DNA of 64,000 nt from Chloroflexota bacterium (GTDB lineage Bacteria > Chloroflexota > UBA11872): NCBI GenBank assembly GCA_022826485.1, contig JAJDUU010000025.1:62001-126000 (forward strand), given 5' to 3'. Below the pieces are notes generated by a model. The model searched no databases. It saw nothing but the letters and a program-made list of their open reading frames with translations, and was not told where the DNA came from. The translations under genes and the position numbers were made by a program. This document shows, piece by piece, positions 1 through 13,975 of the stretch; the first letter of the stretch is position 1; the number at the start of each line of letters is the position of its first letter.

Positions 1-2
1 CA

Positions 3-1163
3 GGTGCCTTTGCCGAAGGACGTCGCGTTCTGAACGCCGATGGCATCGGCTCAGTCGTCTTCGCCCACAAGACCACCGAAGGATGGGAAGCTCTGCTGTC
101 GGGGATGATCCGTGGCAACTGGACCATCACCGGATCCTGGCCGATCGCCACCGAGATGGGCTCGCGCCTGCGCGCCCGCGATTCCGCCGCCCTCGCCACC
201 AGCGTCCACCTCGTCTGCCGCCCGCGACCTGAGGATGCACATGTAGGTGACTGGGCCGACGTTCTCCGCGAGCTGCCGGAGCGGGTCGCTGACTGGATGC
301 AGCGGCTCCAAGGCGAAGGCGTCCGTGGGGCGGATCTAGTCTTCGCCTGCGTTGGGCCTGCGCTGGAGATATACAGCCGCTACCGCGCAGTGGAGACGGC
401 GGACGGCCGGGAGGTAGGCCTGCCGGAGTACCTCGAAAAGGTGTGGGAGGTCGTTGGGCGCGAGGCGCTTGAGCAGGTGCTGGGCACGGCCGAGGCCCAG
501 GCCCGCAATGGCGCGGCAGGCGCGCTGGAGGAAGACGCCCGCCTGACCGCGCTGTTCCTCTGGACTCTGCAGAGCACGTCGGAAGGCGCGTTCTCACAAG
601 ACGGTGCCGCCCCCAATGACGGAGAGGACGAAGCGCCGCGCAGGAAGTCGTCGGGCTACAGCCTGCCTTTCGACGTGGCGCGGCGGTTCGCCCAGCCGCT
701 GGGCATCCACCTCGACGACTGGGAGTCGCGCATCATCGAGACGAAGAGAGGCGTCGTGTACATGCTCCCTGTCACTGAGCGCGGGAAGCAGCTGTTCGGC
801 GAGTCGGGCGCCGCCGCCGTAGCCGACGAGATGGAGGCGGCAGCGAACGTTTCTCCGCAATTGAGCCTCTTTCCCGACGAGCCACCCGCCGTCCGGGGAC
901 GAGCGCGGAGGCGGAGCAGGTCATCGACGCCGACTAGCGGCAATGCAGAGCTTAGGCTGTCGGCGACCACGCTGGACCGGGTGCATGCTGCCATGCTGTT
1001 GCAGGCGTCGGGTCGCAGCCAAGCCCTGCGCAACCTGCTGCGCGCCGAGCAGGAGCGCGGATCCGACTTCCTGCGCCTCGCCAACGCGCTGACGGCGCTC
1101 TACCCACGGGGAAGCGAGGAGAAGCGGCTGCTGGATGCCATGCTATTGGCGGTACCTAGGTAA
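3..1163 (+). CDS. DUF1156 DNA methyltransferase, C-terminal part (HmaB-like)
   Basis: The frame is open from the window edge, so the 5' end and the catalytic motifs lie outside; 386 codons are visible. The first residues (AHKTTEGWEALL, then GSWPIATEMGSRLRA and ALATSVHLVCRPR) are the conserved block I associate with DUF1156 adenine-specific methyltransferases. The C-terminal half is less conserved, with a basic stretch (RGRARRRSRSS) near residue 300. In this family the enzyme methylates host DNA beside a DUF499 ATPase and usually a large helicase. The ATPase is here, 660 bp downstream, separated by a toxin-antitoxin pair. Family assignment is from remembered motifs; the HMA link is inference. 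Confidence 0.8.
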   Translation, partial: GAFAEGRRVLNADGIGSVVFAHKTTEGWEALLSGMIRGNWTITGSWPIATEMGSRLRARDSAALATSVHLVCRPRPEDAHVGDWADVLRELPERVADWMQRLQGEGVRGADLVFACVGPALEIYSRYRAVETADGREVGLPEYLEKVWEVVGREALEQVLGTAEAQARNGAAGALEEDARLTALFLWTLQSTSEGAFSQDGAAPNDGEDEAPRRKSSGYSLPFDVARRFAQPLGIHLDDWESRIIETKRGVVYMLPVTERGKQLFGESGAAAVADEMEAAANVSPQLSLFPDEPPAVRGRARRRSRSSTPTSGNAELRLSATTLDRVHAAMLLQASGRSQALRNLLRAEQERGSDFLRLANALTALYPRGSEEKRLLDAMLLAVPR

Positions 1164-1194
1164 TCGACGAATCCACGAACTACGGAGGGAAGCG

Positions 1195-1446
1195 ATGACG
1201 ACGAACCATGAACTCCTCAACCGCATCACCGCGCGGCCCGCCGTCTTTGGCGGAAAGCCGATCATCCGTGACATGCGGATATCGGTCGAGCTTGTGTTGA
1301 GCCTGCTGAGCCAGGGCGCCACCCAGGATGAGCTCCTGGATGACTACCCCGAACTGGAGCCAGAGGACATCCGCGCCTGCATCGCCTACGCCCACACCGT
1401 GATATCCGGCGACACGCTGGCGCCGGTTTCGGTTGCGGCACGGTGA
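1195..1446 (+). CDS. DUF433 antitoxin-like protein
   Basis: This 83-residue protein has the DUF433 pattern: ITARPAVFGGKPIIRDMRIS, followed by a helix-turn-helix-like stretch (LLSQGATQDELLDDYPELEPEDIRACIAYA). The ATG at 1195 has a strong ribosome site (GGAGGG) ten bases upstream; a longer in-frame start at 1135 lies inside the methyltransferase gene and is unlikely. Its stop overlaps the GTG of the next gene as GTGA. DUF433 proteins are typically paired with DUF5615 PIN-like proteins and are read as antitoxins. The pair sits between the methylase and ATPase genes, so it may be an insertion or an addiction module for the island. Confidence 0.85.
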   Translation: MTTNHELLNRITARPAVFGGKPIIRDMRISVELVLSLLSQGATQDELLDDYPELEPEDIRACIAYAHTVISGDTLAPVSVAAR

Positions 1447-1799
1447 GATTCCTCACCGACCGATGCGCCGGGCGACGGTTGGTGGAGTGGTTGCGTGACA
1501 ACGGACACGACGTTGTTGAAGCACAGACCCTCGGCCCGGATCCAGGCGACCGGGCTTTGCTGGAACGAGCGGGGGCGGAGAACCGGGTTCTCGTCACGCT
1601 CGACAAGGACTTCGGCGAGCTCATCTACCTGCAGCGGGTTTCGCATGCAGGACTGATACGCCTGCCCGATGTTCGGGTGTCCCAGCGAATCGAAACCGTT
1701 CGTGCGGTCATCGAGGATCACGGTAAGGCGCTGGAGGAGCGGGCTGTCATAACCGTACGCGGCGGACGAATCCGGATATCGCATCCGCCGACATCCTGA
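1443..1799 (+). CDS. DUF5615 PIN-like toxin
   Basis: The 118-residue protein matches DUF5615 (Mut7-C/PIN-like) nucleases: MRFLTDRCAGRRLVEWL at the start, then LVTLDKDFGEL around residues 50-60. Candidate metal-binding acids are Asp6, Glu15, Asp54 and Asp56. The start is GTG at 1443, overlapping the DUF433 stop by four bases, so translation is probably coupled. The family is expected to be a toxin with RNase activity neutralised by the DUF433 partner. The DUF499 gene begins 25 bases downstream, so all may be one transcript. Catalytic activity is inferred. Confidence 0.8.
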   Translation: MRFLTDRCAGRRLVEWLRDNGHDVVEAQTLGPDPGDRALLERAGAENRVLVTLDKDFGELIYLQRVSHAGLIRLPDVRVSQRIETVRAVIEDHGKALEERAVITVRGGRIRISHPPTS

Positions 1800-1824
1800 G
1801 CATCAGCAGTTTGGAGTCTTTCCG

Positions 1825-4605
1825 ATGCAACCCTGGTACAAGGTCGTAACGCTACGCGAGGAGGTCCGGGAGGGCCGGTCCTTCAGCCCAGACGAGTTCG
1901 CCATTGCCCTGGAGCAGGTCGTGGCGGGAACGGCGCCCCCGGACTACAGCGATCCGGCGCAGTTCTTCTCGCGCACCTGCTTCACCCGCGCGCTGACGGA
2001 GCACTCCGGCATGGTCCTGCGGCGGTTGTCCGGCCGAACGGAAAACACCGCGCCGGTCCTGACGCTCATCACGCAGTTCGGCGGCGGCAAGACGCACACG
2101 CTCGCGTCCCTGTACCACCTCGCCAACGCCGGTCGTGACGCCGACGCGTTGCCTGGCGTCGGAGACCTGCTCAACGCGGTGAACGTCCCCGAGGCTCCTG
2201 CCGCCCGTGTCGGCGTCTTCGTCGGCAACGCCTGGGACCCCGCGCCCGGACGAGAGACGCCCTGGATCGATCTGGCCCGGCAGCTGGCCGGAGACGCCGG
2301 CCTATCTGCGCTGGGTAGCGCCGCCGAGACGACGCCGCCCGGGACCGAGGCATTGGCAAGGGTGTTCGCCGCGGCAAACGCGCCGGTGTTGCTGCTGTTC
2401 GACGAGGTGTTGAACTTTGTCAACCGACACCGAGGCATGGCCGATCCCTTCCACGCCTTCCTCCAGAATCTGACCGTCGCCGTCACGGGCGCGACCCGTG
2501 CGGCGGCGGTGATCAGCCTGCCCCGCAGCCAGATCGAGATGACCGCGTGGGACCAGGAGTGGCAGGACCGCATCACCAAGGTCGTGCGCCGCGTCGCCCG
2601 CGACCTGATTGCGAACGACGAGTCCGAGATCAGCGAGGTGGTGCGCCGACGGCTGTTCGAGGATCTCGGCGGCGCGCGCGTGCGTCGACGGATCGCAAGA
2701 ATCCACGCGGACTGGTGCTTCGAGCGAAGCGCGCGTCTTCCCCAGGAGTGGACGGCCGTGGACAGTGCGATCACCGGCTCGAAGGCGCGAGACTTCCTGC
2801 GAGGCCGGTTCGAGGCATGCTATCCGTTCCACCCGGCGACGCTTTCCGTATTCCAGCGGAAGTGGCGGGCGCTGGCGCAGTTCCAGCAGACTCGCGGCGC
2901 GCTGGCGATGCTGGCCCAATGGATTTCCTGGGCGTCGCGCGAACAGTTCCAGCAAGCGCGGAATGAACCGCTGATCACCCTGGGCTCCGCCCCGTTGCAC
3001 GTGCCGGACTTCCGGGCCGTGGTCCTCGGCCAGTTGGGGGAGCAGCGGCTTGACGCCGCCGTCGAAGCGGACGTCGTTGGGGATACGTCCCACGCCAGAG
3101 CCCTGGACACAGACACCAAGGGGGCGCTGCGCCACATCCATCGCAGGGTCGGCGCGGCCATCCTGTTCGAGTCGTCCGGCGGGCAGGTGGACAAGGTGGC
3201 CCACCTGCCGGAGTTGCGCTTCGCCCTCGGCGAGCCGGAGGTGGAGACGACCACCATTGACAGCGCCGCCACGGCTTTGGAGAAGTCCGGCTTCTTCCTG
3301 CGGAGAGTCGGCGCGGACGGCTACCGCATCCACCATCAGGCGACGCTGCGAAAGGTCGTCAGCGATCGGCGCGCCTCCCTCGACGAGGACACGGAGATCA
3401 GGCCCGCGGTTCGCAGGATCGTGCAGGAAGAGTTTGCCCGGGGCGCACCGGTTCCGGTCGTCTACTTTCCGGAGAACGGCGATGCGGTGCAGGACTCGCC
3501 ACGATTGACGATGGTCGTCCTCGATCCCGCAGAAGAGTGGCGGAGGAGCGGCCAGCTTTCGGATCGCGTGGTCCGATGGACCAGGGAACGAGGGAATTCT
3601 CCACGGCTCTATCCCGGCGCCTTGGTCTGGTGCGTCAGGAAGCCGGGGCGCGAGTTGCGAGAGAGCGTGGAGCTGTGGCTCGCGTGGCGTCGGGTGGCCC
3701 AGGAGGTGTCGCAGGGCATCCTCGGGGCTGAGTTCGACCGGGCTGACCGGGCCGAGGTGCAAACCAGCGTCAGGGATGCGGAGGAGGCGGCGAGGGACGA
3801 GGTATGGGCCGGATACCGCTTTGCCGCGTTGGGGGACAGGCAAGCGCTGAAGGGATTGAAGGTGATCGACCTCGGCGCGGGCCACTCCAGCGGCAGCGAG
3901 ACGCTCGGCGGGCGCGTGATCGGCGCGTTGAAGTCAGGAGCGCTACTCAACGAGTCCGTGGGCGTGGGATACATCGACCGGCACTGGCCGCCCGCGTTCG
4001 CGGACACGGGAGCCTGGCCGCTGATCAGCCTGCGTCAGAGCTTCCTGAACGGCGCGCTGACCCGGCTGATCGACCCGGATGCAGTCCTCCAACGGAAGGT
4101 CGTCGAATTCGTAACCGCCGGAGACTTCGGATTGGCATCTGGCGAGAAGGACAACGGTCAGTACGAACGAGTGTGGTTCAAAGAGCCGGTAGGTCAGGAC
4201 GAAGTGGCCTTCGAGTCCGGGGTCTATCTGTTGACCAAGGCCAAGGCAGAGCGACTCTCCGCCACAGCCGATGACACGCAGCCGGTGGAGCCGGAAGACC
4301 AAACAAGCCCGAGCACTGATACCGATCCGGATTCGGTGCCGGATTCTGGCCAAACCCAGGTCGCGCTTCCCATAGCGACAGGCCAGAAGGCGACGCTGAG
4401 GCTCAGGGGAACCGTTCCACCGGAGGTATGGAACCGGCTCGGCACGCGAATCCTGCCGAAGCTGCGCTCTGCGGACAACCTGAGCGTCGGCGTCGAGTTC
4501 TCGGTAAGTGTCGATGCGGGCCTAGCCCAAGGCTTCCAGTTGGAGTTGCAGCAAGCGCTAACCGATCTCGGGTTACAAGAGCAGGTGTCAGTGGATACGT
4601 CCTGA
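1825..4605 (+). CDS. DUF499 AAA-like ATPase (HmaC-like)
   Basis: This 926-residue protein has a Walker A motif at residues 83-91 (TQFGGGKTH) and a Walker B at about 187-199 (PVLLLFDEVLNFV), with the N-terminal FFSRTCFTRAL block seen in DUF499 ATPases. A Ser/Asp/Pro-rich linker around residues 820-850 precedes a short C-terminal domain. The ATG at 1825 follows a GGAG site. DUF499 ATPases occur in defence islands with DUF1156 methyltransferases, and methylase plus ATPase plus helicase is the combination called HMA. No intact helicase gene is in this window. It probably powers DNA sensing or remodelling in that system; the mechanism is unknown to me. Confidence 0.85.
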   Translation: MQPWYKVVTLREEVREGRSFSPDEFAIALEQVVAGTAPPDYSDPAQFFSRTCFTRALTEHSGMVLRRLSGRTENTAPVLTLITQFGGGKTHTLASLYHLANAGRDADALPGVGDLLNAVNVPEAPAARVGVFVGNAWDPAPGRETPWIDLARQLAGDAGLSALGSAAETTPPGTEALARVFAAANAPVLLLFDEVLNFVNRHRGMADPFHAFLQNLTVAVTGATRAAAVISLPRSQIEMTAWDQEWQDRITKVVRRVARDLIANDESEISEVVRRRLFEDLGGARVRRRIARIHADWCFERSARLPQEWTAVDSAITGSKARDFLRGRFEACYPFHPATLSVFQRKWRALAQFQQTRGALAMLAQWISWASREQFQQARNEPLITLGSAPLHVPDFRAVVLGQLGEQRLDAAVEADVVGDTSHARALDTDTKGALRHIHRRVGAAILFESSGGQVDKVAHLPELRFALGEPEVETTTIDSAATALEKSGFFLRRVGADGYRIHHQATLRKVVSDRRASLDEDTEIRPAVRRIVQEEFARGAPVPVVYFPENGDAVQDSPRLTMVVLDPAEEWRRSGQLSDRVVRWTRERGNSPRLYPGALVWCVRKPGRELRESVELWLAWRRVAQEVSQGILGAEFDRADRAEVQTSVRDAEEAARDEVWAGYRFAALGDRQALKGLKVIDLGAGHSSGSETLGGRVIGALKSGALLNESVGVGYIDRHWPPAFADTGAWPLISLRQSFLNGALTRLIDPDAVLQRKVVEFVTAGDFGLASGEKDNGQYERVWFKEPVGQDEVAFESGVYLLTKAKAERLSATADDTQPVEPEDQTSPSTDTDPDSVPDSGQTQVALPIATGQKATLRLRGTVPPEVWNRLGTRILPKLRSADNLSVGVEFSVSVDAGLAQGFQLELQQALTDLGLQEQVSVDTS

Positions 4606-4637
4606 TGGCGCTCTTGAAATCAATGCCGACTAGTTTC

Positions 4638-6125
4638 TTAATTACGTCGCCAAGAACCTCGTGTTTCAAGTTCGGGCAATGTACTTGGATATTGCATCGA
4701 CTTATTGGCAACTTGCGCTAGCCAGATAAGCCATCTATCGACAAACGCGCTCGTATCAGCGCGGTCAATGGGAGTAAATGGATACGCACATTGCTGTGAA
4801 GACATTCCTACAAAGAACGATTCCCCGGCTTCTGATGGGTCGAGATCAAATGGCACCGTGCTCGGCTGACCGGAGAAGTTGTTCATAAACGCTACCTCAA
4901 ACCATCGATACTCTCCTTGTGCTTGGGCGTCACAGTACCAAAGTGAGTGTGATCGCCCTTCATAGCCTCGAACCGATGGTGTCTGCGTAACCATGATTGC
5001 CCCACACGCAATCACATCAAACGGTATCGGATATGTAGCTTTTTTAGAATCAGATGCTTCTTCATAAGCAGGTGTCGAAATGATAGTCAGTGTGCCTGCG
5101 TTAAGGCGCCAGGTGATTCTACCTCTAGTTTCACCTCTTGAAGCCTGTGATGCATATCGTCTGATGTTATCCTCTACTGACTCTACAATCGGTCTATATG
5201 ACTGCCGTCCTGCCTGAAGAAGCTCTTGACGTCGTTGTTCTTCAGACTGTGCAATCGACTCTTGCAGACTTTGTTCTGCTTGTCGCGTAACAGCAGCCGC
5301 ATTTGCTTGTTGTAAGAGATTAGCGCCAGCGGGCGGTGAAACGTCACGCGCCGTCTTTAGTTGTTCTAGTAACTGCGTAGGTGAAGGTCGTGCTTGCGGG
5401 GCTTTAATCAAGCATTGCCTAACGATATCAGACAAAGGTAGTGGCACATCTCTCAAACCCGCTGGGATTTCAGTTAGATGTTGTTTGTGGATTACACTGA
5501 TATCGCTTGATGCAAATGGTGGCTGACCTGTGAGCAGTTCATATGCGACTATACCAACTGCATATACGTCAGTTGCGCTAGTTGCTGTCTGATCTCTCCA
5601 TTGCTCAGGAGCCGCATACTTGGGTGTTCGAAAAAACTTACGTGTATCCTGGGCGGTAGTGGCTTCGGCATATTTTGATATACCGAAATCGGCAAGTTGC
5701 CATTGGTCATTCAACAAAAGTATATTGTCCGGCTTAATATCGCGATGAACAACCTTGCCTTCAATTGACACTAGTGCTTCAGCAATGTCGACGAGGATAT
5801 TGATTGCGTCATATGCGTCACACTTGCCGACTCTATTGATAAATGCACGTAGTGAGAGTTTGGCTTGCGGCATTACAAGAACATAGAAATCATCCCATTC
5901 GCCTCTGTCAATGATCGGGATGACATTTCTTGCGCTCGTGAGATCATCGCCAAAGAGGAGTTCGCGATCTGCGCCTGGGTCTTTCGGTATCAACTTCAAT
6001 GCATAAATCTCACCTTGCCTTGATGTTGCTGCATATACGGCACCTAGACCACCCGCTCCAATTAGCGATTGTATTGCCCACTCACGTGCGAGCTGAACGA
6101 TCTCACCTATTGGGTAAGCCACCAA
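4638..6125 (-). CDS. Ser/Thr protein kinase with unknown C-terminal domain
   Basis: The 495-residue protein has an intact Hanks-type kinase domain at residues 15-260: glycine loop GAGGLG (23-28), catalytic Lys44 in YALKL, HRDIKPDN (Asp129), DFG (146-148) and APE (172-174). Residues 265-320 are Gln/Ala/Glu-rich and may form a coiled coil. The last 170 residues match no family I recognise; no transmembrane helix is obvious. TTG at 6125 and GTG at 6122 are alternative starts. The gene is clearly more AT-rich than its neighbours, indicating separate acquisition. It converges on the DUF499 gene with a 32-base gap. Kinases occur in several phage-defence systems, so a signalling role there is plausible but unproven. 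Confidence 0.9.
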   Translation of the reverse strand: MVAYPIGEIVQLAREWAIQSLIGAGGLGAVYAATSRQGEIYALKLIPKDPGADRELLFGDDLTSARNVIPIIDRGEWDDFYVLVMPQAKLSLRAFINRVGKCDAYDAINILVDIAEALVSIEGKVVHRDIKPDNILLLNDQWQLADFGISKYAEATTAQDTRKFFRTPKYAAPEQWRDQTATSATDVYAVGIVAYELLTGQPPFASSDISVIHKQHLTEIPAGLRDVPLPLSDIVRQCLIKAPQARPSPTQLLEQLKTARDVSPPAGANLLQQANAAAVTRQAEQSLQESIAQSEEQRRQELLQAGRQSYRPIVESVEDNIRRYASQASRGETRGRITWRLNAGTLTIISTPAYEEASDSKKATYPIPFDVIACGAIMVTQTPSVRGYEGRSHSLWYCDAQAQGEYRWFEVAFMNNFSGQPSTVPFDLDPSEAGESFFVGMSSQQCAYPFTPIDRADTSAFVDRWLIWLAQVANKSMQYPSTLPELETRGSWRRN

Positions 6126-6294
6126 ACACCGACCTTCGACTCAATTGAATATAGGTATCAGCCCGGCAAGCTAAATGACCGGAACGCATCTGTCAAGTGA
6201 GGAGGGGGGCGTAGTTTCTGAAACAAAAAAGGCCGCATACATGAGCATACGGGGGAGGACGCCCGGACTTGGTGTTCTCCCCGTTGCTCCCGCG

Positions 6295-7415
6295 CTATCG
6301 TCCGGCGCCGACCGGTGCCCACTCCTGTTCCAACGCCCACTCGAACATGGACAGCGCCGGAGCTTGAGCCTTGCGGCGACGGCCCGTGGGCTTCGTCGGC
6401 GGATCGGCCATGAACTCCGCGCAGGAGAACAGGGACGGCTGCCCCTCTTCGGCCTCGTTGCCGTTGATCGGGACAGGCGCGTGGCCGTTCCCGTTGGCGT
6501 GGCCGGCGTGCGGGACCAGCTCGACGCTCGGCCCGATGCCGTCGGCGTCCTGGTGACCGTTGGTCCCGTTGCCGTTGACCGAGACGGCCTCCGGCTCGAC
6601 CTCGACCGCCTGCCAGCCATCGTCCACCAGCAACTCCTCAGCGCTGACTGCGGCGTCCCGCGCGTGCGCAAACACCGCCTCCACCGTTTCGGTGTCCGCC
6701 TCCTGCTGCCCATTCACGATCTGACGGGCCAGCGCCATCATCAGGTCGTCGCCATCGTCGCCGTAGGCGGCCAGGCCGTCCTCGGGCAGTTCCCCCTCGA
6801 CGGCCAGGGAGCTCTGCAGCTTCTGCGCCACCAGATTCAGGGCGTCGGCCTGTAGGGTGTTCCGGTAGGACATGAACACGACCTTGACGAGGGCGCGCGT
6901 GTTGCCGTCGGTGAGGACGTTGGAGCGAATCTTGCCGACGACTGTCTCCTCGAAGCGGCGGGTGTTGAACCTGGGAGTCTCGCAGGCGTCCTTGCCGTGC
7001 TTCATGATCGACTGGCAGACGTAATAGGCGAACTGACCGCTCTTGGCGTCTTAGCCGCTGAGCGCCCTGTTGCACGCCTTGCACTTGACCAGCCCGCTGA
7101 GCAGGTAGGTGCTCCCGACTCGGCGGGGGTGAACGACCTTGGGGGCTCGGGTCTGCATCAGCCTCCTGACGCGCCGGAACCTGGCCTTGGAGACGATGGC
7201 GGGGAACGCCTTCTCTACCCGGACGGGGTCGTCTTTGCCCTTGCCCGTGGAGCCCCATACAAGGTTGCCGGAATTCCAATCAGCACCAAACGCTGCGTTA
7301 CTCGTAGGAGGCGGCATTGCTTCCACGAGGGCGATAGGGGCATGAGCAGCGCCCATCGACGGGTGGCGAGGGGATCTCTGGAGCTTCTGTGCCACCCGCT
7401 TGATCGTCACCCATA
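6295..7415 (-). pseudogene. Serine recombinase remnant fused to helicase-like C-terminus
   Basis: Reading leftwards, about 7250-6880 encodes the recombinase and zinc-ribbon part of a large serine recombinase: LVWG, PVRVEKAFPAIVSK, HPRRVGSTYLLSGLVKCKAC, then YYVCQS and a second Cys before PRFNTRRFEE. A TAA at about 7053-7051 interrupts it just after the first Cys pair. The N-terminal resolvase catalytic domain is missing. From about 6876 (after ALVKVV) the frame continues for about 190 codons into unrelated sequence (SYRNTLQADALNLVAQKL, a Gly/Asn/His-rich linker, then a basic SMFEWALEQEW tail) that resembles the C-terminus of a large SF2 helicase rather than a recombinase. That second identity is from memory and uncertain. 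Confidence 0.75.
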
Positions 7416-7423
7416 ACATAGAC

Positions 7424-7462
7424 CGATAATGTGGTCTCGTGGCCAACGAGACCACATTATCG
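7424..7462. repeat. Perfect 17-bp inverted repeat
   Basis: Arms 7424-7440 (CGATAATGTGGTCTCGT) and 7446-7462 are perfect reverse complements around a 5-base spacer (GGCCA). It lies just upstream of the recombinase remnant on one side and 190 bases before the four-gene operon on the other. An AT-rich TATATAAA follows the right arm, so it could be an operator overlapping the operon promoter. No T-tract follows in either direction, which argues against a simple intrinsic terminator. Confidence 0.9.
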
Positions 7463-7652
7463 TATATAAATCTGCTTGAATCCTTACCATCGACTCGGAT
7501 ACGCTTCTCGTGCGCCGACTAGCGAGGAGGGCAGTCATGGGCAACGGACCATCCAACCATCCTCGTCAGCGTTGGCACAGCGGATGGCTCGGCGTCCATG
7601 CGGAGGCCTGTCGCTGTCGCCGACTCTGCCGAGGCACCGAGGGAGGACAGCA

Positions 7653-8915
7653 ATGACGACCGGCGGCAAAGGCATTCCGCGCTTGCAGGAACTGTCCTAC
7701 CTCGAGGTCGCAGCACGGGCCGTCGCCAGAGGGTCCTCATTTGAGGACATTCGGCGTGAGCTGGTGGACCACATGCTGAGAATCAGCCAAGCGTCGCCCG
7801 GGACCGGCAACACGGCGGCGTACCGAAACGCCAAGAAGAACTCGAAGCGATACGTCAACAATGTGAGCGAAGCGCTCAAGGAGCTCATGCGGCTCGGCCT
7901 CGTTCACAGGGCCACCCTTCCCGCGTCTGCATCCAGTGTCGACGCCTACAGGGGGGCCACGTTCGCGCTCACGGCGTCGGGGGAGACGTGGGTCGACCTG
8001 CTGATCGACGACCGGCCTCGGGGTTACGACGCGCTGTGCGAAACGTTGCTCCGGAACCATCCACAGTTCAAGAGCTTCCTCGTCACAATCGGAGCGTTCG
8101 GCGAATCAGAGCGACAGGGCTTCGAGGTCCCACTCATGCGATGGGGCGACCTTCCGAAGCCCCGAAGTCGGGTGCGGTATGTCCAAACCCTCGCGCTCCA
8201 CATCTCTCAGGAGCTATCGAAGAACCGTGCGGGTTGGGCCGCTGATGCGTCGGAGGTGCAGTCGGCGATCGCGAGCTACGTGCAGGCGATCGTAGACCGA
8301 GCTTGGTCCAGGGAGCGCCCCGATCCTCTTCCCCGCAGTCAGGACTTCGTGAACAAGTGCGAAGAAGCAGCTGTGAAGCTGGCGTTCACCAAGGCGGGGG
8401 CTCCGCTCGACTACATCTCGATGGAGATTCTCCGGCGGTGGACGCGCACGCTCGGGATCGCGAATTTCTCGTATCACGCCCCCGGCAGCTACGCGCTTCG
8501 ACTCTGGCCTACAGCGGAGTTGAGTCGATCGGAGGACGGCTTGGAGATTCGCCGCAGAGTCGGGGAGGTCTGGCGTGATCGAATTGTCACCGAACTGCAG
8601 CGGGCACATGAGCGTGTACGCAGAGCCGACAGCGGCGGTTCCCCATGGCTACCAATCTATCGTGTGAGGGCTGCTGTTTGTGCTGAGCTGCGGGTTCTGG
8701 ATAGCGAGTTCGACATGGCGTTGCTCGAGCTCCTCCGCAGCGAGCGGGGCGCTGAAGTGCCCTACAGGGTGAACCTCGATCAGTCCTCGTACGGGAACAT
8801 CCCGCCGTCCGAACGTCCGCTGATCGTGTCGACACCGTCCGCGACGCGCATATTCAAGTCCATGACGCTGGTCCCGCGCCACAGCGGGACGGCGAGCGAA
8901 GGAGGAATCCAATGA
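7653..8915 (+). CDS. Unrecognised winged-helix-like protein, first gene of four-gene operon
   Basis: I do not recognise this 420-residue protein. ATG 7653 is chosen for its strong GGGAGGACA ribosome site; upstream in-frame starts lack one. Residues 12-110 look like a winged helix: YLEVAARAVARGSSFEDIRREL, then KRYVNNVSEALKELMRLGLV and a wing ending TFALTASGETWVDLL. The rest is mixed helix and charged loops with no visible catalytic motif, transmembrane segment or signal peptide. The stop overlaps the next start as ATGA, so it should be made in step with the ATPase. Likely a DNA-binding or target-recognition subunit of a complex with the three downstream proteins; that role is inference from context. 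Confidence 0.8.
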   Translation: MTTGGKGIPRLQELSYLEVAARAVARGSSFEDIRRELVDHMLRISQASPGTGNTAAYRNAKKNSKRYVNNVSEALKELMRLGLVHRATLPASASSVDAYRGATFALTASGETWVDLLIDDRPRGYDALCETLLRNHPQFKSFLVTIGAFGESERQGFEVPLMRWGDLPKPRSRVRYVQTLALHISQELSKNRAGWAADASEVQSAIASYVQAIVDRAWSRERPDPLPRSQDFVNKCEEAAVKLAFTKAGAPLDYISMEILRRWTRTLGIANFSYHAPGSYALRLWPTAELSRSEDGLEIRRRVGEVWRDRIVTELQRAHERVRRADSGGSPWLPIYRVRAAVCAELRVLDSEFDMALLELLRSERGAEVPYRVNLDQSSYGNIPPSERPLIVSTPSATRIFKSMTLVPRHSGTASEGGIQ

Positions 8916-10240
8916 GTCCGGCAATCCCTGGAATCGTCCACATAAAGAAGAACTGGCATCTGGAGCAGAATCCCTTCCCGTCCGAGGCCATCGCAAGATT
9001 GGGTGGGGAGGATGAGCGGGAGAACGGCTTGCTGTTCGACCCGGACGTGCACCCCGACAAGTTCCGGGAGGCGGCCGAGAAATTCGGGCTTGGCGCCGCA
9101 TACAGCGGCCTCAAGTTCGGCTTCCTGTGGTCCCTCGGAACGGGCCTTCACGGGGACGCTCGCGGGTTCGGCAAGTCGAGCCTGATGCAGCACCTCGCAG
9201 AGACCATCAACGAGGACTTCGGAAGGCAGGTGTTCCTAGACGCCGGCCTCGACGCGAGCGACTCCGAAGAACACCCGATCTGCGCGGTCCTCGCTTCCTT
9301 CGACATGGCGAATGTGCGATCCCTGCACGCGGTGTTCTTCGCCGCGGTCGAGTACGCCTGTCGGTTCCGCCGACCGGAGTACCCGACGCTTCTCGAGCGT
9401 GGTTACCAAAGACTCACGGACCAGATTGGTAGCAGCGACCAGGCTCAGCTTGTCGCCGCAGTCAACAGCACGCAGCTCAACCTCCGTGGACGCACTCTGG
9501 GGCCGCCCGTTGCCGAATTCCTTGAACTTCTGTGTTCGGGCGATTTCCAAGCCGTGATCGAGCATCTCGGGAACGCTACGCCAGCGCGTCGCACCAGAAA
9601 TGGTGCTCTCTATCTGGCCACGCTCCTGATCTTCCTCAAGTCGGCCGGCATCGCGCACATCCTGCTCTGCTGCGATCAACTCGAGGACTTCGCGGCGACC
9701 ACAACCGCGAAGCAGAAGCGATCCATCGAGATCGAGCGCTTCCGGGACTACCTGCTTGAGATCCAGCCCATGGCCGACTTGCTGAGTGTTGTCGTGACGA
9801 TGCACCCGCGGGCCGTGCAGGCAATCGCTGAGATGTGGCAGCTGGCTGATCTTCCAAGCTACGACCACGACCGAGAGGAGAACCGACACCGGGTCGTGAT
9901 CCTCGAACGCATCGGCTCAGCGGCGAAGACATCGCGTCTGCTACGCCCCTACCTCGACCGATTCCGGGCTGATAGCGCGCCGACCGATCTCGATCCACTC
10001 GCTCCGTTCACTGCGGATGCCATCGAGGCTGTCTTTACTCGATCCGACGGGAAGCCGCGCGACATTCTGAGGAAGGCTCAGGTGCTTATCGAGAGAGGCG
10101 CCGAAAAGAACTGGTCGGTCATCGACGGTGCGCGGGCGGCGCAGCTCCTCGATACATGGGTACTGGACGAGTCCGACGAGAATCTCCTCAATCCGTCTGC
10201 AGCCCTCGTGCCCGGTGACGTCGATTGGGGTGGCAGATGA
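8912..10240 (+). CDS. Cdc6/Orc-like AAA ATPase, second gene of operon
   Basis: The 442-residue protein has a nucleotide-binding loop at 81-90 (GDARGFGKSS), a variant Walker A where the usual first Gly is Asp, as in Orc/Cdc6-like loops of form xxRGxGKS. Walker B is at 249-260 (HILLCCDQLEDF), a sensor-like strand is at 293-300 (VVVTMHPR), and a sensor-2-like SDGKPRDILRKA is at 379-389. This arrangement fits an AAA or STAND ATPase acting on DNA. The start overlaps the upstream stop by ATGA and its stop overlaps the next start the same way. It probably drives conformational or DNA-translocation steps for the nuclease downstream. No named family is assigned. Confidence 0.85.
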   Translation: MSPAIPGIVHIKKNWHLEQNPFPSEAIARLGGEDERENGLLFDPDVHPDKFREAAEKFGLGAAYSGLKFGFLWSLGTGLHGDARGFGKSSLMQHLAETINEDFGRQVFLDAGLDASDSEEHPICAVLASFDMANVRSLHAVFFAAVEYACRFRRPEYPTLLERGYQRLTDQIGSSDQAQLVAAVNSTQLNLRGRTLGPPVAEFLELLCSGDFQAVIEHLGNATPARRTRNGALYLATLLIFLKSAGIAHILLCCDQLEDFAATTTAKQKRSIEIERFRDYLLEIQPMADLLSVVVTMHPRAVQAIAEMWQLADLPSYDHDREENRHRVVILERIGSAAKTSRLLRPYLDRFRADSAPTDLDPLAPFTADAIEAVFTRSDGKPRDILRKAQVLIERGAEKNWSVIDGARAAQLLDTWVLDESDENLLNPSAALVPGDVDWGGR

Positions 10241-10971
10241 TTAGTTTTCCTGGGCTGTGCAGGGACCTGTTCCTCATGGCCCAGATACCGTTGAGCGCGG
10301 CGTCTCGCGGCCATCAGTGGGAGCGGTGGATTCAGCATCACCTCGCGAACCGAGGCGTGCGCAGCGACGTTCTCCCCGGGGGATACAAGCTCCTGGGAAC
10401 CTCGTCGCTAAGCGGCCTCTCGCACCAGTTGGATGCTACCCTCTCTTCCCGAGAGGCCATCGTCATCGGTGAGTGGAAGGCGTATCAGGGGTTCTTCCCG
10501 AAGAACGAGCTGATCCGCTTCAAGGCCGTCACCGACGACTACTACTTCGGTCTCCGCGGACAGCACCCGGCTCGCTCCATCATGCGTCTCTTTGGAGGGC
10601 CGGGCATTGCCACGCGTGAACTGCGCAGCTACGCCGCCAGCTGGGGCATAACGCTCGTCGACTCCGAGCGGTGGCCGGCCCCCGTACTTGCGAGCGAGCA
10701 CCTCTTGTGGCCGCCGGGCGACTTCGAAGCGCCGGCACAGGAGGATCGTCAGCATCTGGCATGGCTCTCGCGGCCACTTCAAGATGTGCTCCCCCTTCTT
10801 CCGGATGGCGACTACCGGGTGCGGCGCCCGCTCCCGTCGGCAGCCATCGCCGGCGCCTTGGACCGTCACGACTTCTGGTCTGAACGTCTTTGGTTCTCCA
10901 TCGATGCAGTCCCAGGCAAGTTCGAGGCGCTCATTGAGCATTACTCGACGAGGTGGGCTCAGGCGGCATGA
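10237..10971 (+). CDS. PD-(D/E)XK nuclease-like protein, third gene of operon
   Basis: This 244-residue protein carries a restriction-endonuclease-fold signature: helix 1 Glu29 in SRGHQWERWIQHHL, then Asp66 in HQLDATL and Glu79-x-Lys81 in IVIGEWKAY, with the hydrophobic strand expected before the ExK. This is the layout of Mrr-like and similar PD-(D/E)XK nucleases. The C-terminal half (from about 110) is unassigned. The start used is ATG 10237, in the ATGA overlap with the ATPase stop; a TTG at 10225 is less likely. It is the probable effector of the operon, cutting DNA under control of the ATPase. Activity is inferred from motif spacing only. Confidence 0.8.
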   Translation: MISFPGLCRDLFLMAQIPLSAASRGHQWERWIQHHLANRGVRSDVLPGGYKLLGTSSLSGLSHQLDATLSSREAIVIGEWKAYQGFFPKNELIRFKAVTDDYYFGLRGQHPARSIMRLFGGPGIATRELRSYAASWGITLVDSERWPAPVLASEHLLWPPGDFEAPAQEDRQHLAWLSRPLQDVLPLLPDGDYRVRRPLPSAAIAGALDRHDFWSERLWFSIDAVPGKFEALIEHYSTRWAQAA

Positions 10972-11738
10972 GTCTTCGGACATGCACTCTATGCGGTTGT
11001 GGTGACCTGGGACCGTGGGAGGCGTCCCCGTGTCCGTCGGTCTTGGCCGCTCGGGGGAAATCCCTCGGGAATGCCGACGCGGCGGTGTATGTCCTTGAGC
11101 GCGCCGACGGCCCATTGAGCATCTACGACATCCAACGCGGCATCACGAGGAATTTCGGGTGGGAGCCGTACAGACCCTCACTCACAGTAAGCGTTGCCAA
11201 TGACCTGCGCTGCTGCTGGGCAGGGAAGGGGCTCTACGCTCTATATCGCCACGGACTGATACCAGGACCCCGCAAACTCGTCGATGTCGCCAAGATCGTC
11301 CTCCAGGCTCAGGACACCGAGCTCACCGCCGACGAAATCTCCTTTGCTATGAGGCACCTTGGCTACCGCTTTCAGAAGCAGTCGCTCATCAACGCGCTGC
11401 TGAAAGAGAGGTCCATAGAACGCGTCGCTTGGAGGACTTGGGTGTTCGGCACAGACAGGCCGATTTCCAACATAAGGGTCGCACCAACAGTCACGAAGTT
11501 CGAGAGAGTCGTAGAGCGAGTCCGCCAGTCGGTGTCCTTGGCTCTAGTTGAACATAGGCGGCGACTATCTCGAACAGGATTGGGCCTCGCCGATACAGAC
11601 AGCATCTACACAGACGGTTCGCAGCCCCCTGCTGAGCCATGGCGCGACGCCTCGTTGTCAGAGGTAGTCGAACGGGGTATGGCTCCAGAACGAGCCAGAT
11701 CGCTGTGTGATGCGACCTGTGATTCCGATCGGGATTGA
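10968..11738 (+). CDS. Zinc-finger plus tandem winged-helix protein, fourth gene of operon
   Basis: The 256-residue protein begins with a compact cysteine cluster (CTLCGCGDLGPWEASPC, Cys at about 6, 9, 11 and 22), likely a zinc knuckle. Two winged-helix-like units follow. The first is at about 35-95 (ADAAVYVLERADGPLSIYDI, ending GKGLYALYRHG) and resembles HARE-HTH domains. The second is at about 105-165 (VDVAKIVLQAQDTELTADEI). The C-terminal 90 residues are polar and low in structure. ATG 10968 is fixed by the ATGA overlap with the nuclease stop. It is probably a nucleic-acid-binding specificity or regulatory subunit. No family name can be given with confidence. Confidence 0.75.
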   Translation: MSLRTCTLCGCGDLGPWEASPCPSVLAARGKSLGNADAAVYVLERADGPLSIYDIQRGITRNFGWEPYRPSLTVSVANDLRCCWAGKGLYALYRHGLIPGPRKLVDVAKIVLQAQDTELTADEISFAMRHLGYRFQKQSLINALLKERSIERVAWRTWVFGTDRPISNIRVAPTVTKFERVVERVRQSVSLALVEHRRRLSRTGLGLADTDSIYTDGSQPPAEPWRDASLSEVVERGMAPERARSLCDATCDSDRD

Positions 11739-11743
11739 TGCGC

Positions 11744-11749
11744 TATAGT
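11744..11749 (+). promoter_or_regulatory. Possible -10 element for Xre/RES pair (leaderless)
   Basis: TATAGT lies seven bases before the ATG at 11756. A start of transcription at the usual distance would fall on or next to the A of the start codon, giving a leaderless mRNA. No convincing -35 box is seen, so support is weak. Confidence 0.35.
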
Positions 11750-11755
11750 CTGCCA

Positions 11756-12148
11756 ATGACGACCACGCCGGTTGCCCGCTCTGATTACGACGCGCACGCG
11801 CGAGCGATTCGCTCCGCTTTCCCGGAGGTGGTCCGCGAGGTGCGCGACATCCTCGGTGCGCGGCTCTGCGCGTACCTGGGGTCGGTGAAGGAAACCCGCG
11901 CCGTGCACCAGTGGGCAGAGGGGTCGCGCGCCCCTAGCGCCGAGGTGCAGCGGCGGTTGCGCGTCGCCCTGCAGGCCGCGGCTCCGATCGCAGCCGCCGA
12001 CTCGGCTGCCGTTGCGCAGGCCTGGTTCCAGGGCCTGAACCCGCAGCTCGACGATTGCTCGCCCCTGCACCTGCTCCGCGTGGGCGATCTCGACGAGATC
12101 GGCCCCGCGGTGATCGGTGCCGCGCGCTCCTTCCTGGCCAGCGGTTGA
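11756..12148 (+). CDS. Xre/MbcA/ParS-type antitoxin (DUF2384-like)
   Basis: The 130-residue protein starts at ATG 11756 and overlaps the next frame at its stop. The N-terminal half has a helical DNA-binding region (LCAYLGSVKETRAVHQWAEG, then RRLRVALQAA). The C-terminal part (AWFQGLNPQLDDCSPLHLLR) matches the DUF2384 antitoxin-binding region, where a Trp-x-Gly-x-Asn stretch is followed by a Pro-Leu helix. It should bind and neutralise the RES toxin encoded immediately downstream and repress their shared promoter. It follows the four-gene operon by 17 bases and could be partly read through from it. Confidence 0.85.
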   Translation: MTTTPVARSDYDAHARAIRSAFPEVVREVRDILGARLCAYLGSVKETRAVHQWAEGSRAPSAEVQRRLRVALQAAAPIAAADSAAVAQAWFQGLNPQLDDCSPLHLLRVGDLDEIGPAVIGAARSFLASG

Positions 12149-12711
12149 GCGGCATCCTCGAGACGGTGGCCGCCTACGGTCCCGTCTTCCGCCTTGCTCG
12201 CGCCCCCGATCCCTGGGCATGGCCCGACTGGAGTCAGGCCGGCCTCGACGGAACCTTCGGGAATCGCTGGGACGACTCCGAGGGCGAGTACCGCGTCCTC
12301 TACGCGAGTTCGACCCGCTTCGGCGCCCTGCTTGAGACGCTGGCGCGCTTCCGACCTGACCTCGCGGTCGTCGCCGGCCTTCGCGAGATCGAGGGGGAGG
12401 ACGACGCCCTGGCCGCCGGCACCGTTCCCCGCGAGTGGTTCGAGCGGCGGCTCATGGGTGTGGCCGAGCTCTCCGGCGCGTACGCCGAGGTCGGGGCGGC
12501 CGCGTCGCTGGCGACGATCCGCTCGCAGCTGGCCGCGAGGGCGCTCCATCACGGCCTGACGGAGGTCGACACCGCCGCGATTCGCGCCTCCGTCCCGCGC
12601 GGCTTTACGCAGGAGGTGTCGAGGCTCGTGTACCGGAGCCGCACTGCCGAGGGCCAGCCGCTCGCCGGCATCCGCTACCGCTCGCGCCTCGACGACGACA
12701 CCGACAACTGA
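12145..12711 (+). CDS. RES-domain toxin
   Basis: The 188-residue protein has the RES fold pattern: VFRLARAP near the start (Arg), GNRWDDSEGEYRVLYASS (residues about 50-70), ALLETLARFRP (Glu), and a late Ser/Arg segment (GIRYRSRLD). RES toxins deplete or modify NAD-related substrates, by NAD phosphorolysis or ADP-ribosylation in studied members. TTG 12145 is chosen because TTGA overlaps the antitoxin stop; GTG 12166 is an alternative. Typical RES/Xre gene order is antitoxin first, as here. The pair probably stabilises the island or acts in stress or phage response. Confidence 0.85.
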   Translation: MSGILETVAAYGPVFRLARAPDPWAWPDWSQAGLDGTFGNRWDDSEGEYRVLYASSTRFGALLETLARFRPDLAVVAGLREIEGEDDALAAGTVPREWFERRLMGVAELSGAYAEVGAAASLATIRSQLAARALHHGLTEVDTAAIRASVPRGFTQEVSRLVYRSRTAEGQPLAGIRYRSRLDDDTDN

Positions 12712-12883
12712 GCCGTCTTCGAGCCGGCGCCGGTAGCGCCCGCTCCGTTACGCGTGCTCGACGCCGAACCGGTGCGGTCCGTCGATCCCGACGTGACTCG
12801 CGCGGTCAGCGTACTGGGGCTCCGGGTCCGGTAGGGCGGGACGGGCCTGTTGGGGCCGCAAGAGGACAGTCAGCCCGGCATAG

Positions 12884-12912
12884 CTATCCCCACCCGCGTG
12901 GGGGTGAACCGG
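12884..12912. repeat. Solitary type I-E-like CRISPR repeat
   Basis: These 29 bases begin CTATCCCCACCCGCGTGGG and end GGTGAACCGG, closely resembling type I-E repeats (GC-rich short hairpin, GTGAACCG end). No second copy is found about 61 bases either side, and no cas genes are in the window, so it is an orphan or a chance match. It lies directly before the regulator fragment. Confidence 0.45.
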
Positions 12913-12924
12913 ACCCGGGCGGGC

Positions 12925-13289
12925 TTTCGCTGGCGGGTGGCCGCCGAGCCGACAGACACGTACGTCAGGGGCGATCTGGCCGTCGACTTCGCCGAGCGCC
13001 AGATAACCTGGGGCGATCGGCGGGTCCCGCTCGCCGCGACGGAGTACCGGATGCTGTCTGAGATTGCGGCCAGGTCGGGACGAGTCTGACCTACAAGGAG
13101 CTCCTGGACCGGGTCTGGGGCAAATGTAAGCACGGCGACGTGCGGCCCATGCGCACCATCGTGAACGAGGTCCGCCGCAAACTGCGTGACTACGCGGACG
13201 GCCTCACCAACATCTTCATCGAGCCTCGCGTCGGCTACCGGGTGGCGATGGCCGAGACGGGTGGGGCCGGGCCGTCCAAAGGCCCCTGA
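12925..13289 (+). pseudogene. OmpR/PhoB-type DNA-binding domain fragment, frameshifted
   Basis: The frame to 13089 encodes VRGDLAVDFAERQITWGDRRVPLAATEYRML and SEIAARSGRV, then stops at TGA. A shift of one base at about 13086 restores LTYKELLDRVWG, VRPMRTIVNEVRRKLRD and IFIEPRVGYRV, the rest of a winged-helix output domain of a two-component response regulator. One missing base therefore broke the gene. The receiver domain expected upstream is absent, replaced by sequence containing the CRISPR-like repeat. It is a decayed chromosomal or transferred regulator; a DNA-binding product is unlikely. Confidence 0.8.
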
Positions 13290-13355
13290 AGCGGGGCTCT
13301 CCTACCTCAGAACAGGGGGCGAGGGCATCAGCTCCGCTGGTCGGAGACATGGCTT

Positions 13356-13391
13356 GCACGTCCAGCGACTAGTTGGAGAACCTGGACGTGC
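13356..13391. repeat. 10-bp perfect inverted repeat
   Basis: GCACGTCCAG (13356-13365) and CTGGACGTGC (13382-13391) are reverse complements with a 16-base spacer. It lies downstream of the broken regulator fragment. No T-tract follows, so its role (weak terminator, protein site, recombination site) is open. Confidence 0.8.
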
Positions 13392-13818
13392 CGGTTGCGG
13401 AGGGCGGAGTTAGCGACTCGCGGGCCAAGTTTGTGGGGTCGGCCGGATTTCCGGGGGCGAACCGGCGAGAGTTGTACCGGCGCGCTGGGACCTCGGTACC
13501 GCCCGGCTCTGAGTGGCTGTTGCCCTACGCGGCTGCGGATCCCGCCGGGATGCAGCACTGCTCACGGTGGCCGCGCTGCCATCCAGGGTCAACATGGTTG
13601 CCTTCGTGCCGCCAAGCGCCATGGATTGCTTGCCAAGATGGACTGATCAGCGCGCGGCGGGTGCTGGACAAAGTCGCGCAGACGCTCTCATCGACGCCCA
13701 CGGACGACCAGATGTGCCGCCGGAAGCTCTGCCGCGGGTCGGGCGCGTGCCAGACGCATCTGGCCAATCTGGAGAGGTTGCCTTGAACTTCCGGGAAGCA
13801 GCCTAATCCCTGGAAGAA

Positions 13819-13847
13819 ATGTTGGCCGATGTTGGCGAAATGTTGGC
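13819..13847. repeat. Three helically phased ATGTTGGC repeats
   Basis: ATGTTGGC occurs at 13819, 13829 and 13840, spaced 10 and 11 bases, so all face one side of the helix. They lie about 55-80 bases from the tRNA-Lys 3' end, as arm-type integrase sites often do. No integrase gene is seen, so the function is a guess. Confidence 0.55.
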
Positions 13848-13899
13848 AAACGGCCATTCACGGGGAGTCATGGGACCCCCAAAACAGGCCTCACAAACC

Positions 13900-13975
13900 T
13901 GGTACCCCCGGTAGGAATCGAACCTACAACCTTCGGATTAAGAGTCCGCTGCTCTGCCAATTGAGCTACGGAGGC
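13900..13975 (-). tRNA. tRNA-Lys (anticodon CTT)
   Basis: The reverse strand reads a complete 76-base cloverleaf: acceptor GCCTCCG/CGGGGGT, D arm GCTC...GAGC, anticodon stem GCGGA/TCCGA (GCGGA pairs imperfectly at one end) with loop CTCTTAA, T arm GTAGG TTCGATT CCTAC, discriminator A and encoded CCA. The CTT anticodon reads AAG. The 3' end points toward the accessory island at 1-13.9 kb, the usual arrangement for integration at a tRNA gene. Confidence 0.97.

Follow-up and report, generated by a model that had tools for sequence, protein, structure and literature searches.

A perfect 17-bp inverted repeat as candidate operator of a winged-helix/ATPase/nuclease-like operon on a genomic island of a Chloroflexota bacterium

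Genes and features around the palindrome

Positions 1-13947 of the window, i.e. of the whole stretch of 64,000 nucleotides analysed, belong to an integrative defence island of 43.4 kb in tRNA-Lys(CTT) (C48:32537-75947), of which they are the right-hand part. This island, which is missing from all five congeners, encodes a tyrosine integrase, a Replic_Relax protein, a patatin, an E1-E2/JAB protein, HmaA/HmaB/HmaC and a protein kinase. The patatin and E1-E2/JAB genes (C48:48399-52999; window -13601 to -9001) are CBASS-like, and the Ser/Thr kinase encoded beside the Hma genes (window 4638-6125, minus strand) resembles the mad6/PD-T4-6 kinases of PADLOC.

Internal to the island, a palindrome of 39 bases (7424-7462) sits between remnant genes that point leftward and an operon that points rightward (Table 1). 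A dead recombinase had been proposed to the left of the palindrome, and this gene is real: the serine recombinase remnant carries an in-frame stop codon and lacks its N-terminal part. It is considered to be 5'-truncated because the homology to intact relatives ends at about position 7272, the alignments starting, with few exceptions, at residues 58-62 of the remnant. Neither the approximately 150 bp between this break and the palindrome nor the palindrome itself contains recognisable recombinase sequence; since the homology stops at about 7272, the palindrome is assigned to the operon side.

The first start codon to the right of the palindrome (7538) follows the end of the right arm by 76 bp and belongs to a short upstream ORF which, judged from its ribosome binding site and its overlap with gene 1, may represent a leader peptide or a translational-coupling ORF. 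The low-confidence structural model of the gene 1 product contains winged-helix-like segments at both ends. All DNA-binding candidates encoded in the operon match their families below the curated cut-offs (HVO_A0114 wHTH, E 0.038; HARE-HTH, E 0.0035; Xre, E 0.03). The Xre-like and RES genes close behind gene 4 are probably read through from the same operon.

No match above the cut-off in Pfam and none in PADLOC, PHROGs or NCBIfam was obtained for the proteins encoded by genes 1-3. Profile searches against the PDB returned nothing meaningful, and the AlphaFold models were too poor for a fold search (mean pLDDT of 34 for the ATPase and of 45 for the gene 1 product). The three genes together (wHTH-like, ATPase, PD-(D/E)XK-like; window 7653-10971) represent a candidate for an undescribed defence system, a role that we infer from the island setting and the nuclease signature.

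Table 1. Features of the palindrome locus and of the related loci (window positions unless a contig or locus is named)
Feature	Position	Strand	Details
Remnant serine recombinase	6295..7272	-	in-frame TAA at 7051-7053; 5'-truncated, N-terminal part missing
Left arm, perfect inverted repeat	7424..7440	.	CGATAATGTGGTCTCGT
Spacer, 5 nt	7441..7445	.	GGCCA
Right arm, perfect inverted repeat	7446..7462	.	ACGAGACCACATTATCG
AT-rich TATATAAA	7463..7470	+	possible -10 region, predicted from the sequence; directly after right arm
38-aa upstream ORF	7538..7654	+	strong Shine-Dalgarno GAGGAGG; stop overlaps gene 1 ATG (ATGA)
Gene 1, 420 aa, winged-helix-like	7653..8915	+	weak HVO_A0114 match, residues 29-86, below cut-off
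Gene 2, 442 aa, P-loop ATPase	8912..10240	+	conserved Walker A (RGFGKS)
Gene 3, 248 aa	10225..10971	+	invariant D70, E83, K85 (D...E-x-K, PD-(D/E)XK-type nuclease signature)
Gene 4, 261 aa, HARE-HTH-like	10953..11738	+	below cut-off
Xre antitoxin-like and RES toxin genes	11735..12711	+	Xre below cut-off; RES E 6.6e-8
Island attachment repeats, 51-bp direct repeats	13897-13947 (in tRNA-Lys(CTT)) and C48:32537-32587
Shared inverted repeat TATGGCGAGAA...TTCTCGCCATA	L008:7645-7725, L040:520-625		5' of Azospirillum-type operon

Sequence, folding and copy number of the palindrome

The two 17-bp arms of the palindrome are 100% complementary, and the second-longest perfect inverted repeat in the 64 kb scanned has arms of 11 bp and is thus 6 bp shorter per arm. 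By analytic expectation, a window would contain 0.0005 repeats with arms of at least 17 bp and spacers of 0-20, and a genome 0.02. In dinucleotide shuffles of the region upstream of the operon that contains the palindrome, an arm length of 17 bp was reached in none of 200 cases (maximum 10). The expectation per window and the shuffles bear out the proposal of the sequence-only reading that a perfect palindrome of 39 bases is far beyond chance, with the qualification that the genome has other long perfect hairpins. As in an operator, an inverted repeat beyond chance is thus positioned just 5' of the operon.

Folded as RNA the palindrome reaches -29.4 kcal/mol (z = -7.9), and this very stable stem may indicate a transcribed hairpin, either a terminator-like or insulating stem without U-tract which would stop transcripts from running on into the operon, or a stable hairpin in the 5' leader of its mRNA. 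The terminator-like hairpin is the main rival explanation because the genome contains other long perfect hairpins without U-tracts: four intergenic perfect hairpins with arms of 14-16 bp or near that, all without a U-run, were detected in 398 kb. Three of them are located 42-47 bp past the ends of ORFs and the fourth farther away, and they look like terminators. In addition, a scan gave a loose terminator-like match on the minus strand at the palindrome with the tail GTCTATGTTA (5 T in 8), and the palindrome shares the strong stem-loop and the 5-nt loop with intrinsic terminators. However, its arms have a GC content of only 47% (8/17), compared to 75-93% in the stems of the four other hairpins and 66.6% across the window, and a U-run is present in neither of the tails (plus strand, TATATAAATC; minus strand, GTCTATGTTA). 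Furthermore, the palindrome does not follow the stop codon of a gene: neither strand has an intact gene ending beside it, the closest ORF end on the plus strand (7416) belonging to an ORF that runs antisense to the dead recombinase, and it precedes the operon, next to AT-rich sequence. Due to these differences from the four other hairpins a terminator appears less likely, and we regard the hairpin explanation as unlikely overall, though it is still the main rival.

Two nearly identical hairpins with 16-bp arms (CGAAGRGCCGGCGGTC) were found at L019:2001-2036 (C48) and L032:19382-19417 (C39), each 47 bp past the end of an ORF. They perhaps constitute a U-tract-free terminator family of this lineage.

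The palindrome is single-copy in the genome. A 15-mer of the arm, with up to two mismatches allowed, occurs at this site only, apart from one two-mismatch half-site on another contig. The whole palindrome with up to three mismatches was not found in 400 genomes of the phylum, all five congeners included, the exact palindrome had no match in the IMG/VR viral contigs, the upstream DNA had none in phages or plasmids, and Rfam gave no match at this position. Recurrence as a simple repeat at unrelated loci, which had been raised as a possible objection, was likewise searched for and not detected. Taking the single copy and the absence from the 400 genomes together, the palindrome is not a dispersed repeat or a transposon end, and the assignment to a transposon end, a MITE or a dispersed repeat was rejected.

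Occurrence as a single copy in this species only would also fit an incidental scar without function for the operon, such as a template-switch (fold-back) duplication that arose close to the junction of a rearrangement, or a short piece of DNA of unknown origin. One event of template switching can create perfect arms, and the break of the recombinase homology is separated from the palindrome by approximately 150 bp. On the other hand, an AT-rich, promoter-like region adjoins the palindrome 5' of the operon, and two related operons carry inverted repeats at the same place (see below), so that a scar seems quite improbable.

Palindromes next to AT-rich DNA are a common layout of origins, and the island encodes a Replic_Relax protein and a tyrosine integrase. 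The palindrome could therefore be thought of as a site at which the island is replicated, transferred or recombined (origin, oriT, resolution or attachment site), perhaps used by the ATPase or the old recombinase. However, a distance of more than 20 kb separates the palindrome from the replication and integration genes, the N-terminal part is missing from the recombinase remnant, whose homology stops short of the palindrome, and there is no second copy of the arms. An attachment site of the island was rejected, since the palindrome is single-copy and the ends of the island are the 51-bp tRNA-Lys repeats. Of the three options offered by the sequence-only reading, operator, recombination site and sequence protected or cut by the system, the second is hence disfavoured, and any role as an island site is considered very unlikely; the first is the best supported one.

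Homologous loci and their upstream regions

Genes 1-3 were also found together, in varying order, on plasmid p1 of Azospirillum brasilense (L008), in a genome of the same phylum (L009) and on a virus contig with a major head protein (L039). A fifth locus on a viral contig (L040) comprises a truncated ATPase only, which is 75% identical to the ATPase of L008. The homologues are few and distant, sharing 18-31% identity with the proteins of the window. A search with the ATPase in the same genus and phylum revealed one real homologue (G193); a second match (G194) was rejected as an ABC-F ATPase and a third (G303) is short and weak. Scans of GTDB contigs with the ATPase and with a three-sequence profile detected no homologues, and further searches of viral contigs and of the order to which G193 belongs added no new relatives. 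Gene 4 was not seen in the loci homologous to the operon. Thus, the four genes of the originally proposed operon are present in the window, but the module that recurs elsewhere is limited to the first three.

The palindrome of the window was not found upstream of any of these loci (L008, L009, L039, L040). The Azospirillum plasmid and L040 share a different inverted repeat, TATGGCGAGAA...TTCTCGCCATA, about 70-160 bp before the start of the ATPase, with arms of 12 and 15 bp that are 52 and 74 bp apart and with the right arm approximately 70-80 bp before the ATPase start. These arm lengths were reached by shuffles in 1/200 and 0/200 cases, respectively. Across the 1.85-Mb Azospirillum replicon, an 11-mer of the repeat in L008 has only four occurrences, of which two are within the repeat itself. 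The inverted repeat of L008 also contains further TTCTCGCC copies.

In the upstream regions of L009 and L039 no repeat longer than expected by chance was detected in the shuffle comparison, and the similarity between the half-sites of the window and those of L008 and L040 is not significant. As L008 and L040 are close relatives, they count as one case. The expectation that the palindrome precedes homologous operons is therefore borne out in part: the exact sequence is absent from all loci found, and an analogous inverted repeat occurs in two of the four. As far as the compared sequences indicate, it is the position of an inverted repeat, not its sequence, that is common to part of the operon family only.

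The same comparison bears on the suggestion that the palindrome is a recognition site which is protected or cut by the PD-(D/E)XK-ATPase module. Although gene 3 has the D...E-x-K nuclease signature, the sequence is kept by no homologue, has no other copy in the genome and shows no further link to cleavage, and such a role is highly improbable.

A putative operator of the downstream operon

The AT-rich TATATAAA next to the right arm may contribute to a promoter of the operon. A weak candidate for the -35 element is TGGCCA (7440-7445), which precedes TATATA by 17 bp; 8/12 consensus positions are matched in all, and a promoter scan detected no sigma-70 consensus promoter at threshold near the palindrome.

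Operators are usually imperfect, and perfect pairing over 17 bp is found more typically in an element that forms a hairpin, which counts against an operator, as do the absence of the exact palindrome from every homologous operon and the lack of a long inverted repeat upstream of L009 and L039. Nevertheless, an operator is the best supported explanation because the palindrome is the one target in the genome, which fits a local autoregulator, is flanked by AT-rich, promoter-like DNA, is positioned 5' of the first start codon in the divergent gap and has a counterpart of different sequence at the same position in two related operons. Weighing both sides, we give about an even chance to the palindrome being a locus-specific operator of the downstream operon, probably an autoregulatory one.

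In such a scheme, a dimer or two monomers of a winged-helix/HTH protein would bind both 17-bp half-sites beside the AT-rich promoter region, with the promoter placed near TATATAAA. The simplest binder would be a protein encoded by the operon itself, i.e. the product of gene 1, of gene 4 or the Xre antitoxin at the 3' end. The bound regulator would hold the transcription of the wHTH/ATPase/nuclease module down until needed. The position of the promoter, the identity of the binder and the sign of the regulation are those we infer from this arrangement.

Precedents exist for local control of this kind over defence or toxin-antitoxin genes. AbiEi, an autorepressor of a defence/toxin-antitoxin system, binds a pair of 23-bp inverted repeats separated by 3 bp in its own promoter (PMC7319586). 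Like the palindrome, its operator combines long half-sites with a short spacer 5' of a defence-type operon, and a candidate winged-helix binder is encoded in the operon; however, the sequences are unrelated, no AbiE genes are present at this locus, the repeats are perfect here and the binder is a candidate only. RptR represses the promoter of a defence island, in this case a restriction-modification island, via short palindromes (PMC12255303). This resembles the local palindromic control proposed here for a defence-island promoter, but the RptR sites are 6-bp palindromes in direct repeats and no RptR-like gene was identified at this locus. The target of Xre-RES, finally, is an imperfect inverted repeat within its own promoter (PMC12204516). 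At the present locus, Xre-like and RES genes come after the operon, and the Xre-RES target is likewise an inverted repeat; however, that site is imperfect and directly upstream of xre, whereas the palindrome lies 4.3 kb upstream, before the first gene.

A more far-reaching idea, which we consider very improbable, is that the wHTH-like protein, the ATPase and the PD-(D/E)XK-like protein make up an undescribed mobile defence system with its own lineage-specific inverted-repeat site. Bound by the wHTH protein or the ATPase of the system, this site would serve both the control of expression and the assembly or licensing of a nuclease complex, and site and protein would co-evolve while the position is kept.

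The module recurs in a phylum-mate, an alphaproteobacterial replicon and a viral contig. If the palindrome is an operator, it would itself be an ordinary type of element attached to a little-known gene module, and it would mark where control is exerted on an operon with three core proteins that match no model above the cut-off. Its 39 bp would then provide a short, testable handle on when this module switches on.
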